From Vicinamibacterales bacterium (lineage in GTDB: Bacteria; Acidobacteriota; Vicinamibacteria; Vicinamibacterales; 2-12-FULL-66-21): 64,000 bases of DNA. Position 1 is the stretch's first letter, and every line of letters starts with the position of its first letter. Position numbers and translations under genes: made by a program. The notes beneath the pieces are model-generated. The model searched no databases and was not told where the DNA came from. It saw only the letters and a list, made by a program, of their open reading frames with translations. The stretch lies in NCBI GenBank assembly GCA_035699745.1, contig DASSPH010000047.1, forward strand, positions 103,497 to 167,496, read 5' to 3'. This document shows, one piece after another, positions 55,330-59,900 of the stretch.

Positions 55330-55366
55330 CAAAACAAGGGCGGCAGCGCCGAAGCACTGCCGCCCA
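55330..55366 (-). terminator. Intrinsic terminator after the rpoC-tail remnant
   Basis: On the minus strand a 12-bp stem (GGGCGGCAGTGC / GCGCTGCCGCCC, one T-G wobble) closes on a TTCG tetraloop and is followed by TTGTTTTG. Its design is the same as the terminator of intact rpoC at 56844-56883, so it is the second copy of that terminator. Confidence 0.85.
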
Positions 55367-55383
55367 ATCTGCAATCCGACACT

Positions 55384-55457
55384 CCGTCGATCGCCAATCA
55401 CCCAATCGACAACCGTCGATCGGCAATCGCCAATCGCCAATCGCCAATCTGCAATTG
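55384..55457. repeat. CAATCGC-type tandem repeat tract, copy A
   Basis: About six short units (CGATCGCCAATCACC, CGGCAATCGCCAATCGCC, CAATCTGCAATT) lie between terminator A and the rpoC-tail remnant. The same order of units recurs at 56926-56989. A near-palindrome, ATCGACAACCGTCGAT, is included. Confidence 0.75.
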
Positions 55458-55464
55458 CCCGCGA

Positions 55465-55612
55465 CTACTCGATCTCGTCGCGGGTAAAGGCCTCCTCGGG
55501 CTCGACGAAGTATTCCATCTCCCGTTCCAGCTCCAGCTCCTCCGGCGACGGCGGGCGGGCGGCGGTGGCGGCTCCCGCCTTCGTGATCACCGCTCGTTCT
55601 CTTCACCTGGAA
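55465..55612 (-). pseudogene. Truncated second copy of the rpoC 3' end
   Basis: Read on the minus strand, the frame ends PPSPEELELEREMEY then FVEPEEAFTRDEIE and TAG, matching the last roughly 31 codons of intact rpoC. All differences seen there are synonymous (for example GCC/GCG, TTT/TTC, ACC/ACG, CCC/CCG and TAG/TAA). Further upstream it matches rpoC around EENERVI (near 57340-57360), so about 250 bp is deleted between the two blocks. It is a remnant without a start, lying between a nuclease-like gene and its own terminator. Confidence 0.85.
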
Positions 55613-55619
55613 GCTCTTG

Positions 55620-56486
55620 TTAGCCCGTTGATGCCTCGAAAGACTCACCGATGACCGATTCAATCACCTGTCGGTGCTTCTGAAGATCGTCAGGCGTAAG
55701 CCGAATCCGATAGCGTCCCCACCGCTCGTCATAGTCCATCACGTCGAGGCCAGCGCTCTCGAGCTGTTGCTGCATTGCGTCCGATCGCTCCAGCCGTGGT
55801 TCAAAACGAATAAACGTCTTTGCAGGCCGAAAGACGACGAAGTTGTTTGGCTCCCCGTTCTTGGCGAGTCCGATATAAAACTTGTTGTATTTCAGCTCCA
55901 GTCCAGGTTCGAACTTCCTAATGAGTTGCAGCAGTGCGTCCGCCATTGCGACAGTTCTTTGCGAGCCGCGAGTCTCCCAGTAGTTCCGGTCCGTTACCTC
56001 GTGCGTTTCCTCGTCTTCCTCGACGAGTCCAAAATTCAGCTGATCGACGACTCGTGTAAAGACCAAACCGATGGAATCACCGTTCCTAAATGCGCTCAGC
56101 TGAAGAGCGATTAACGGGATCTGCCCATTAAACAAGGTAATGACATTCAGGAATCGAGCGGTTATCTCTTCCGCGACTATCACTGCCGAATGTTCGTACT
56201 GTGGATATCTCTTTCGTTCAATATCCCAGTACTCGATTGTGCGAATGATGTGAGACTCGTCCGTCGCGCCTAACTGAATCTCGACCTCGAATCGCCTATT
56301 TGTCTCGACTGCCTGGAGGAGGAGATCTAGGCGTCCTGCTCGCGGTTGAATTCGTTCCTTATCCTTCAGAATCACATCGCCGAGTCCGAGCAGCGATGGG
56401 TCGTCAGCAATTCGGTCTTGTACCCATCGTTCTGTGTATTGTGAGTTATTCCTCAAAGGAACTCTTTCGAACTTCACGTAGGCCAT
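55620..56486 (-). CDS. PD-(D/E)XK nuclease-like protein, 288 aa (foreign composition)
   Basis: The 288-aa protein starts MAYVKFERVPLRNNSQYTER. It has a nuclease-like core, GRLDLLLQAVETNRRFEVEIQ at about residues 51-71, with the Asp and the two Glu of ExE placed as in PD-(D/E)XK enzymes; IIRTIEYWDIERKRYPQYEHSAVIVAEEI follows. The C-terminal half is a second domain, perhaps DUF5655-like. Base composition (about 50% G+C by eye) is much lower than its neighbours, a sign of transfer. It lies between two copies of the rpoC end. Its function is not established; defence or mobile-element roles are possible. Confidence 0.65.
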   Translation of the reverse strand: MAYVKFERVPLRNNSQYTERWVQDRIADDPSLLGLGDVILKDKERIQPRAGRLDLLLQAVETNRRFEVEIQLGATDESHIIRTIEYWDIERKRYPQYEHSAVIVAEEITARFLNVITLFNGQIPLIALQLSAFRNGDSIGLVFTRVVDQLNFGLVEEDEETHEVTDRNYWETRGSQRTVAMADALLQLIRKFEPGLELKYNKFYIGLAKNGEPNNFVVFRPAKTFIRFEPRLERSDAMQQQLESAGLDVMDYDERWGRYRIRLTPDDLQKHRQVIESVIGESFEASTG

Positions 56487-56843
56487 GGGTGTCCTATGTA
56501 ACGGAGTGCCCCTCGACCGGCATCACCGAATCCCTCTTAAGCCAACTGACGGAGCCGACCATCCGTACTTGGAGAATAGGCTCGCGCACGCAACCGCTAG
56601 CATCGTCTTGCCATGGCGCATCTGAAACGCCTTGTGAGTTGGAAGTGCGCGGATCCTAGCACAACCGTTACCGAGCCGCGTCAGTGTTTATGCTACATGC
56701 CCCGGGTGAAGTCTCTCGCGCAACCAGATCGATGCAGCCGACCTTCGTCGAGATTCCGGCAGTGCGCTCAGACGACCGCCCATGAGTAGTCACGAACGAA
56801 GGGCGCGAAATCTCGCCTAAGCTTGCCTGGCGACGCGGCGAGT

Positions 56844-56883
56844 GCAAACAAAAAGGGCGGCGACTCCGAAGAATCGCCGCCCC
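56844..56883 (-). terminator. Strong intrinsic terminator of the rpoB-rpoC operon
   Basis: On the minus strand, GGGCGGCGATTC - TTCG - GAGTCGCCGCCC forms a 12-bp stem (one T-G wobble) on a TTCG tetraloop and is followed by TTTTTGTTTG. This is a textbook strong terminator about 107 bp after the rpoC stop. Confidence 0.92.
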
Positions 56884-56925
56884 AAATCCTTCCGCCCGAA
56901 GCGGAAGCCACGCGTCAATCAACGA

Positions 56926-56989
56926 TCCGTCGATCGCCAATCACCAATCGACAATTGTCGATCGGCAATCTGCAATCGCCAATCGCCAA
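56926..56989. repeat. CAATCGC-type tandem repeat tract, copy B, with 16-bp palindrome
   Basis: Between rpoC and its terminator, units such as CGATCGCCAATCACC and CAATCGCCAATCGCCAAT repeat the order of copy A. The 16-bp stretch ATCGACAATTGTCGAT (56947-56962) is a perfect palindrome. Confidence 0.75.
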
Positions 56990-59900
56990 TTACTCGATCT
57001 CGTCGCGCGTGAACGCCTCCTCCGGCTCGACGAAGTATTCCATCTCCCGTTCCAGCTCCAGCTCCTCCGGCGACGGCGGCGGCGGCGGTGGCGGCTCGTC
57101 CGCCGGGATCCGCACGTTCCGGTAGAACTCGAAGCCCGTCCCGGCCGGGATCAGCCGGCCCATCGTCACGTTCTCCTTCAGGCCGCGGAGGTGATCCACC
57201 TTGCCCGAGATCGACGCTTCGGTGAGCACCCGCGTCGTTTCCTGGAACGACGCCGCCGAGATGAACGAGTCGGTCGAGAGCGACGCCTTGGTGATCCCGA
57301 GCAGCAGCGGCCGGCCCTGCGCCGGACGTCCGCCCGCCGCGATCACCCGCTCGTTCTCTTCCATGAACCGGAAGCGATCGACCTGCTCCTCGATCAGGAA
57401 CTCGGTGTCGCCGACATCCTCGATCTTCACCCACCGCATCATCTGGCGGACGATGACCTCGATGTGCTTGTCGTTGATGTTGACGCCCTGCAGGCGGTAG
57501 ACCTCCTGGATTTCGTTCACCAGGTAGGAGTGCAGCGCCTTCTCACCGAGCACCGAGAGGATGTCGTGCGGGTTGCTCGGCCCGTCCATCAGCGGCTCGC
57601 CGGCGCGGACGCGGTCCCCTTCCTGGACGTTGACGTGCACGCCGCGCGGCAGCGAGTACTCGCGCGGCTCGCCGCCGCCCTCGTCGGGAACGATGATGAT
57701 CTTGCGCAGACCCTTGACGATGCCGCCGTGGCGGACGACGCCGTCGATCTCGGAGATGACCGCGGTCTCGCGCGGCTTCCGCGCCTCGAACAGCTCGACG
57801 ACGCGCGGCAGACCGCCGGTGATGTCCTTGGTCTTGGTCGACTCGCGCGGGATCTTCGCCAGCACCTGCCCGGCGTGGACGGTGTCGCCGTCCTCCACCA
57901 TCAGGTGGGCGTGCGACGGCATGTGGTACTTGCGCGTCACCTTCCCGCCCTTGTCGCGGATCTCCATCGTCGGCTGCTTCTTCTCGTCCGGGCTGTCGAC
58001 GACGATCTTCCGCGACAGGCCGGTGACTTCGTCCACTTCCTCGTGGAAGGTGACGTCCGAGATGAGGTCCTTGTACTTCACCGTGCCCGCTTCCTCGGTG
58101 AGGATCGAGAACGTGTACGGGTCCCACTCGACGAGAATCTGCCCCTGCTCGACCGACTGGCTGTCGCGCACCTTGAGGCGCGCGCCGTAGACGATCGGAT
58201 AGCGCTCGCGATCGCGTCCCTTGTTGTCCTGGACGACGATCGATCCGGTGCGGTTCATGACGACGAGCTCGCCCTTGGCGTCCGCCGCGCCGCCCTGCGG
58301 CCTGGTCTCGACGACCTGCAGCCCCTGGTAGCGGACGACGCCGGCGTGCTTGGCGTCGAGCGTCGACTGCTCGCTGACCCGCGACGCCGTGCCGCCGATG
58401 TGGAACGTGCGCATCGTCAGCTGCGTGCCGGGCTCGCCGATCGACTGCGCGGCGATGACCCCGACCGCCAGGCCGAGCTCGACCAGCTTGCCGGTCGCCA
58501 GGTCGCGGCCGTAGCACTTGGCGCAGCAGCCGCGGCGGCTGGCGCAGGTGAGCACCGAGCGGATGCGCACCTTCTCGATGCCCGCTTCCTGGATCGCCGT
58601 CGCCTTCTCTTCGTCGAGCTCCTCGTTGGTGTTGACGATGACCTCGCCGGTGAACGGGTCGACGATCTTCTCGAGCGTGACCCGGCCGATGATGCGCTCG
58701 CGCAGCGGCTCGATGATCTCCCCCGACTCGACGATCGCCCGCGCGTCGATGCCGTCCATCGTCCCGCAATCGAGCTCGTGGATGATGACGTCCTGCGCCA
58801 CGTCGACCAGACGGCGGGTGAGGTAGCCCGAGTCGGCGGTCTTGAGCGCGGTGTCGGCGAGGCCCTTGCGCGCGCCGTGGGTCGAGATGAAGTACTGGAG
58901 CACCGTCAGCCCCTCACGGAAGTTCGAGGTGATCGGCGTCTCGATGATCTCGCCCGACGGCTTGGCCATCAGACCGCGCATCCCCGCCAGCTGGCGGATC
59001 TGCTGCTTCGAGCCTCGCGCGCCCGAGTCGGCCATGATGTAGACGGGGTTGAAATTGCGCCCCGACTGGTCGAGCTCCTCCATCTCGCCGAACATCGCGT
59101 CGGCGATCTTCTCGGTGACTTCCGACCACACGGCGATGACCTTGTTGTAGCGCTCGCCGTTGGTGATCGCCCCTTCGAGATACTGCCCTTCGACCTTGAT
59201 CACCTCGTCGCGGGCCGATTCGACCAGCGCCGGCTTCTGCGACGGGATGACCAGGTCGTCGATGCCGATCGACAGCCCCGAGCGCGTCGCGTAGGTGAAG
59301 CCGAGCGTCTTGAGCGAGTCGAGCATCTCGACGGTCTTCTCGAGGCCGTAGCGCAGGTAGCAGTACTGCACCAGCTGCTGCAGCCCCTTCTTCTTCAGCA
59401 GGCCGTTGACGAACGGCATCCCCTTGGGCAGCGCGCTGTTGAGGATGACGCGGCCGACGGTGGTGTTGATCACCTTGTTGCGGACGTCCTGCACTTCGGC
59501 GTACTGGACCCCCTGGTCGTCGCGCGCCACGGTGAGATCGATCAGCTCGCCGCTGATCCGCACGCGGATCGGCGTCAGCGTCTCGAGCTCGCCCGCTTCC
59601 AGCGCCAGCACCACGTCCTCGAAGTTGCCGAAGGCGCGCCCTTCGCCCTTGGCGCCGGGCTTCGACTTGGTCAGGTAGTAGCAGCCGAGCACGACGTCCT
59701 GCGACGGGATCGCGATCGGCTGGCCGCTGGCCGGGGACAGGATGTTGTTCGAGGACATCATCAGCACCGATGCCTCGATCTGCGCTTCCGGCGCCAGCGG
59801 GATGTGCACCGCCATCTGGTCGCCGTCGAAGTCGGCGTTGAAGGCGGTGCAGACGAGCGGATGGATGCGGATCGCCTTGCCCTCGACCAGCACCGGCTCG

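Follow-up and report, generated by a model that had tools for sequence, protein, structure and literature searches.

A repeated rpoC 3' end around a cassette-like gene, and integron parts behind rpoC, in the Vicinamibacterales

How does the 3' end of an essential gene come to stand twice in the same direction, with an unrelated gene between the two copies? The question is raised by rpoC in a 64,000-nt stretch of a Vicinamibacterales genome (GCA_035699745.1, contig DASSPH010000047.1, positions 103,497 to 167,496), hereafter the window; its genome is designated G000, and other G numbers denote comparison genomes. A sequence-only reading had described the 3' end of an essential gene directly repeated around foreign cargo, with a CAATCGC tract and a TTCG-loop terminator behind both rpoC ends, and both observations were confirmed. 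The final 89 nt of intact rpoC are repeated at 55466-55554 with 96% identity, 1,525 nt apart, and the cargo gene at 55620-56486 lies between the copies. The direct repeat is real, and what is new here is that the rpoC flank repeatedly holds integron parts. Along the direction of rpoC, the order is the stop codon (56990), a heptad tract, terminator 1, about 370 bp, an open reading frame (ORF) of 288 amino acids (aa), a remnant of the rpoC tail, tract 2, and terminator 2:

56990..61204, minus strand: intact rpoC, 1404 aa
56928..56990, minus strand: heptad tract 1, CAATCGC type, separating the rpoC stop codon from terminator 1
56854..56883, minus strand: predicted terminator 1, 13 pairs, TTCG loop and T-run
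56544..56640, minus strand: weak attC-like match, ending 58 nt upstream of the cargo start codon
55620..56486, minus strand: cargo gene, 288 aa, predicted PD-(D/E)XK-type nuclease
55613..55625, minus strand: attC-like R'' box GGCTAACAAGAGC across the cargo stop codon, the remainder of attC being absent
55466..55604, minus strand: rpoC tail remnant (about -371 to -346 joined to -114 to -1)
55390..55459, minus strand: heptad tract 2
55338..55365, minus strand: predicted terminator 2, 12 pairs, TTCG loop

The remnant at 55466-55604 is composite. Positions -114 to -1 from the stop codon (93% identity, small gaps) are preceded by about 25 nt matching -371 to -346, so that about 230 nt are missing between the two pieces. 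A period of 7 was detected by Tandem Repeats Finder at 55390-55459 and 56933-56990, and the tract pattern had eight near-matches versus 0.41 expected in shuffled sequence. Terminator-like sites numbered four in the region versus a shuffle mean of 2.2, so this count is weak by itself; the two TTCG-loop terminators have the longest stems in the region and are 79% alike. The heptad tract is part of a dispersed repeat family, CAATCGCCAATCGC occurring 24 times in its own genome versus 0 for the backwards pattern. Among the genome-wide matches listed for G000, G002, and G008, members of this family often form plus/minus pairs of about 80 nt, which are potential long hairpins.

To see whether the layout recurs, the final 900 nt of rpoC in 85 genomes of the order were each compared with the DNA that follows in the same genome, over a length of up to 8 kb. 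At least 1.5 kb was present behind rpoC in 81 of these flanks, and 118 to 560 nt in the other four. G005, whose contig is too frameshifted, and G030, G076, and G085, in which contig ends cut rpoC, were left out of the counts, and G002 was left out of the remnant counts since its tail could be either an intact copy or a remnant. Five of the 85 genomes (G000, G004, G009, G060, and G072) carry a same-strand remnant at E<1e-8, and a reversed-tail control gave none below 1e-4 in the same flanks. All five clear remnants share the strand of rpoC and lie no more than 1.6 kb from it. Whole-genome searches revealed two further remnants, in G008 and G069, where a contig end interferes. The tail on G008 contig C7 spans -711 to the stop codon, is split by ~80-nt repeats, and is followed by a second short tail; the G069 contig begins in the last 50 rpoC codons, with a remnant (-664 to -440) about 1.8 kb behind. 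Two tails each are present in G004 and G008, and G009 has an additional rpoC tail on a separate contig (C89). The remnants start at about -711, -664, -534, -371, -332, -308, and -65 from the rpoC stop codon. The layout recurs with different cargo genes, as the sequence-only reading had proposed checking in relatives. One of its other suggestions fared less well: remnant 5' ends ranging from -711 to -65 do not fit an element integrating at one site in the gene end. Remnants in five of 85 genomes plus two more also do not fit the random local event in one strain that it had named as a possible refutation.

As a control, other genes were searched for downstream copies. None of 445 had a copy reaching the stop codon, some match was seen for 12, and only one of the 445 matched at ≥90% over 40 nt; in an earlier version of this control, non-rpoC matches mostly had 72-87% identity. 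This ORF-based control covers only 57 rpoC loci (two of which reach the stop codon), one antisense ORF over the window remnant being excluded, and rpoC counts were therefore taken from the comparison of 85 flanks. GC-rich repeats of ~80-100 nt interrupt or adjoin remnants in G008 (L067, 3752-4813), G009 (L062, ~+1090), and G072 (L238), and in G008 one remnant is broken up by four of them while losing little rpoC sequence. In two genera, short rpoC tails (L061 +16 in G004 and L067 4863 in G008) have a near-identical start in rpoC and stand directly behind a GTCCGGCTTCAGCCGGAC-type palindrome.

What, then, accompanies the repeated rpoC ends? Integron parts (an integrase, integrase scraps, or attC) were found behind rpoC in nine of 88 genomes, the 88 being the 85 above plus G002, G008, and G069. 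BLAST searches with two G009 recombinases identified integron-type integrases on the rpoC strand in five of the 85 flanks, namely G009, G060 (in two frames), G097 (running off the contig), and, as scraps, G089 and G095; a 23-aa C-terminal integrase scrap was read by eye in G011. The G009 and G060 integrases, which scored 445 and 394 bits against TIGR02249 (cut-off 265), lie behind the remnant and outside the repeat-flanked segment. A covariance model built from nine attC sites matched at E≤1e-4 in seven rpoC flanks (G008, G011, G016, G060, G063, G089, and G095); some of these matches are training members, whereas those in G016 and G089 and further matches in G011, G008, G063, and G095 are not. 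In about 214 kb taken from elsewhere in G000, G004, G007, and G008, the same model gave no match at E≤0.01. A pattern scan for attC gave 12 matches, representing eight distinct sites, versus one in the reversed control. The order terminator, integrase or integrase scrap, and attC array, read in the rpoC direction, recurs in three families (G060, G089, G095, and G011); G011 also carries two attC sites in the opposite direction. Since attC clusters also occur elsewhere in the genomes with integron parts behind rpoC, and 50 of 162 genomes of the order have an integrase over the cut-off, rpoC is one favored place among several. Integron parts were present in three of the seven remnant genomes versus six of the 81 others (P = 0.022, Fisher, the window being scored as not positive). 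PMC8352920 and PMC8618304 record integrons or attC sites in Acidobacteria, and searches of open-licence papers showed none on integrons beside rpoC.

These integrases and attC arrays in relatives go beyond the sequence-only reading, as does the cassette-like look of the cargo gene itself. Its stop codon lies inside an attC-like box. When scored against 27 attC 5' ends, this box reaches the mean score of those ends and ranks 6th among the 127,974 positions of the window. A 63% homologue in G406 sits in an array of four attC sites, with its stop codon likewise in attC. Six homologue loci were scanned for attC: one was clear (G406), one was borderline (G236, E 0.011), and four had none. Because of the stop codon in an attC-like box and the homologue between attC sites, we regard the cargo as a likely integron-derived cassette; the label is limited to this, since the window has neither an integrase over the cut-off nor a complete attC. 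By eye, the downstream attC is broken off after 11 to 20 bases, and rpoC sequence starts there. An IntI crossover is expected to leave attC up to its R' box, and such a crossover at the attC-rpoC join was rejected, as the window keeps only these first bases. The attC-like match upstream of the cargo (9.1 bits, E 0.41) is not significant alone. Distribution of the cargo is patchy: it is present in one of 12 genomes of the family and, at E≤1e-10, in seven of the 396 genomes from the phylum.

Searches of Pfam, NCBIfam, and the PDB sequences returned no match for the cargo protein. Some of its close homologues carry PF18899, DUF5655. It matched PADLOC PDC-S18 at E 1.3e-4. A predicted model (mean pLDDT 82, pTM 0.55) had no PDB match at E≤0.001, EndoMS/NucS appearing at E 0.02 to 0.06. 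Residues D54, E67, E69, and Q71 are invariant and by eye form what we take to be a PD-(D/E)XK-type site. The roles of this protein as a nuclease and in defense are predictions.

Divergence between intact and remnant copies bears on where the second rpoC end came from. After polarization by other genomes, the remnant branches carried 16 synonymous and 6 non-synonymous changes, and the intact branches carried 12 synonymous and 0 non-synonymous changes; three changes, all synonymous, were unresolved. The G004, G008, and G072 pieces are not part of this polarized set, nor is one G009 piece with 1 synonymous and 3 non-synonymous changes. Random change in these segments is expected to be 23-29% synonymous, and 16 of 22 has a P of about 4e-5 at 30% synonymous, assuming independent changes, which does not fully hold for the three G009 pieces. 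Without polarization, G000, G009 (both contigs), G060, and G008 gave 39 synonymous and 13 non-synonymous differences, and the four differences between the window copies are all synonymous. Because the changes are mostly synonymous, the copies seem to be diverged alleles, each of which apparently served as a working rpoC end for some time. By identity, the rpoC of the same genome is the best match for the window remnant, for the tail on G009:C89, and for some pieces in G009 and G008. Divergence at fourfold sites in the family is lower over the last 200 rpoC codons (0.28-0.30 versus 0.34-0.37) and flat in two other families, a dip that mildly supports exchange at this gene end.

Taken together, these data make one explanation probable: homologous exchange with rpoC as its anchor and an illegitimate join at the far end, the second rpoC end being the displaced tail of the recipient. 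Recombination with a foreign rpoC tail, one of two candidates in the sequence-only reading, is thus the cause that we now favor. DNA taken up from another strain or species would have come from a relative and carried its own rpoC end, a terminator, and probably an integron gene cassette. A homologous, RecA-type crossover within rpoC would have anchored one side, and the non-homologous far end would have joined within the old rpoC tail of the recipient; in the window, this join would fall in the leftover of the cassette attC. Since the cell cannot do without rpoC, a product would survive only if it retained one whole copy, and the old tail would be free to decay. Repeated events would stack older tails further downstream, as may have happened in G004 and G008.

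Several observations weigh against this explanation. The G072 differences comprise 0 synonymous and 2 non-synonymous changes, and the worn G004 tails show 19 synonymous versus 12 non-synonymous. G004 also has one 35-nt match between its two downstream regions (E 1.2e-5). A foreign rpoC is not regularly the best match of a remnant, the pieces other than those closest to their own gene being tied or nearer to another genus; given this mixed picture, a donor would be close kin. A third family, represented by one pair only, has an erratic rise in divergence at the rpoC tail. No TIGR02249 match in the window genome exceeds the cut-off, and no complete attC was found in the window region, the match upstream of the cargo being the best of 17 covariance matches in 4.1 kb; in the whole genome, no complete attC was found among 150 scored of 19,168 candidates. 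No donor turned up, nor did any strain of the same genus with an empty site, and G008 C7 is inferred to continue the rpoC contig C63.

How do other routes to the same layout compare? A Campbell-type single crossover with a circle carrying an rpoC tail, terminator, and cassette would give the same arrangement, the remnant start marking the edge of the circle's piece of rpoC, and the varying remnant starts and allelic divergence fit it equally well. Such a circle must already join the cassette to rpoC, and none was seen when plasmids were searched with the cargo protein as the sole query, which gave 13 records, all at 80% identity or below; we consider this route unlikely. In-place duplication, by slippage (perhaps at the attC hairpin) or unequal crossing over with later loss of the second cassette, would suit the closeness of the window remnant to its own rpoC and a junction within the attC remnant. 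It would not explain why the remnant changes are mostly synonymous, and the DNA behind terminator 1 is not repeated behind terminator 2 in G000, G009, G060 (the 97%-identical case), or G072. Unrelated DNA after the two terminators therefore disfavors a simple tandem duplication, and we regard in-place duplication as quite unlikely.

The layout, together with the integron-type integrases behind the remnant in G009 and G060, also recalls a site-specific element that used the rpoC 3' end as its attachment site, restored the gene with its own copy, and later lost its integrase. The remnant starts, however, are spread over ~650 nt of rpoC with no common core site, both of those integrases lie outside the segment between the repeats, and, as the sequence-only reading had noted, no integrase is encoded between the window copies among the window ORFs. 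Integron integrases act on attI and attC sites, which also counts against an element specific for rpoC, and such an element is very unlikely. A retrocopy, in which a reverse-transcribed rpoC mRNA end was inserted and the gene between is incidental, would account for copies that are cut at the 5' end and whose similarity stops near the terminator, but random insertion would scatter such copies, whereas all five clear remnants share the rpoC strand and its immediate vicinity; this origin is highly improbable. An assembly or binning artefact might be suspected in draft assemblies of many contigs, but it is scarcely credible here because substitutions and indels distinguish the copies, the layout is shared by separate genomes, and the cargo protein is recorded on five contigs (which may include re-deposits of one genome).

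Gene content behind rpoC is variable. rpsL lies within the stretch examined in 29 of the 85 genomes, 0.2 to 7.9 kb behind rpoC, and neither rpsL, rpsG, nor fusA was found in the window's 57 kb behind rpoC. The 47 window ORFs had no convincing match on the rpoC contigs of family members, with one weak match (31% over 109 residues) far off in G004, and a search for a native gene behind rpoC found none. A separate scan of genome contigs yielded no member of the family. The genes that occupy this place include the nuclease-like gene in the window, DUF2442 in G009, BrnT in G011, a nucleotidyltransferase in G069, and Fic, RHH, and DUF2442 in G007 and G004. A small antisense ORF with no Pfam family is present behind rpoC only in G002 (L068, 4092-4406) and G069 (L203, 1455-1772), which belong to two families. 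A leader common to G000 and G011 behind terminator 1 scored 116.5 versus a maximum of 108.5 in 200 shuffles, but its BLAST match was no better than the reversed control, and it was set aside as a hint.

A broader and more tentative proposal, toward which we lean less than halfway, is that the rpoC 3' end may be a shared docking anchor at which genera exchange cassettes and entire integron platforms through homologous recombination, with no dedicated integrase, each swap leaving a fossil tail and terminator. If so, the rpoC flank would be a readable stack of past gene exchanges, with displaced gene ends as the physical record of each event, and arrays could pass between species with neither their own integrase nor a carrier element to move them. 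The number of rpoC tails, and the set of cassettes behind rpoC, should then vary among strains of one species.

The locus resembles several known systems. Islands and integrative and conjugative elements integrate at the 3' ends of protein genes and restore them, with rpsI, guaA, and prfC as example targets. They share with the rpoC locus an intact gene end, cargo, and a second partial gene end, but the rpoC repeats are diverged and of varying length, with no common core site and no element integrase between them. Sedentary chromosomal integrons and clusters of attC sites lacking integrases (CALIN) have counterparts behind rpoC in relatives, namely attC arrays, the TIGR02249 integrase, and cassette genes, BrnT among them. 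They differ in that the window has no integrase or complete attC and the array lies on an rpoC recombination scar; moreover, the usual integron has its integrase divergent from the array, whereas the integrase is co-directional with it in G060, G089, and G095.

A third comparison is with gene clusters of the type VI secretion system (T6SS) and with rhs genes. Kirchberger et al. 2017 (PMC5361080) proposed sequential displacement by homology-facilitated illegitimate recombination for orphan immunity genes behind the T6SS clusters of Vibrio cholerae, and cited the same process for orphan 3' ends of rhs genes. These systems and the rpoC locus share a constant upstream homologous anchor, new cargo, an old 3' end retained downstream, stacking, and the proposed mechanism. 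At rpoC, the anchor is instead an essential housekeeping gene, the cargo goes with integron cassettes, and the displaced piece is a useless tail with its terminator, whereas in the T6SS clusters it is a selected immunity gene.

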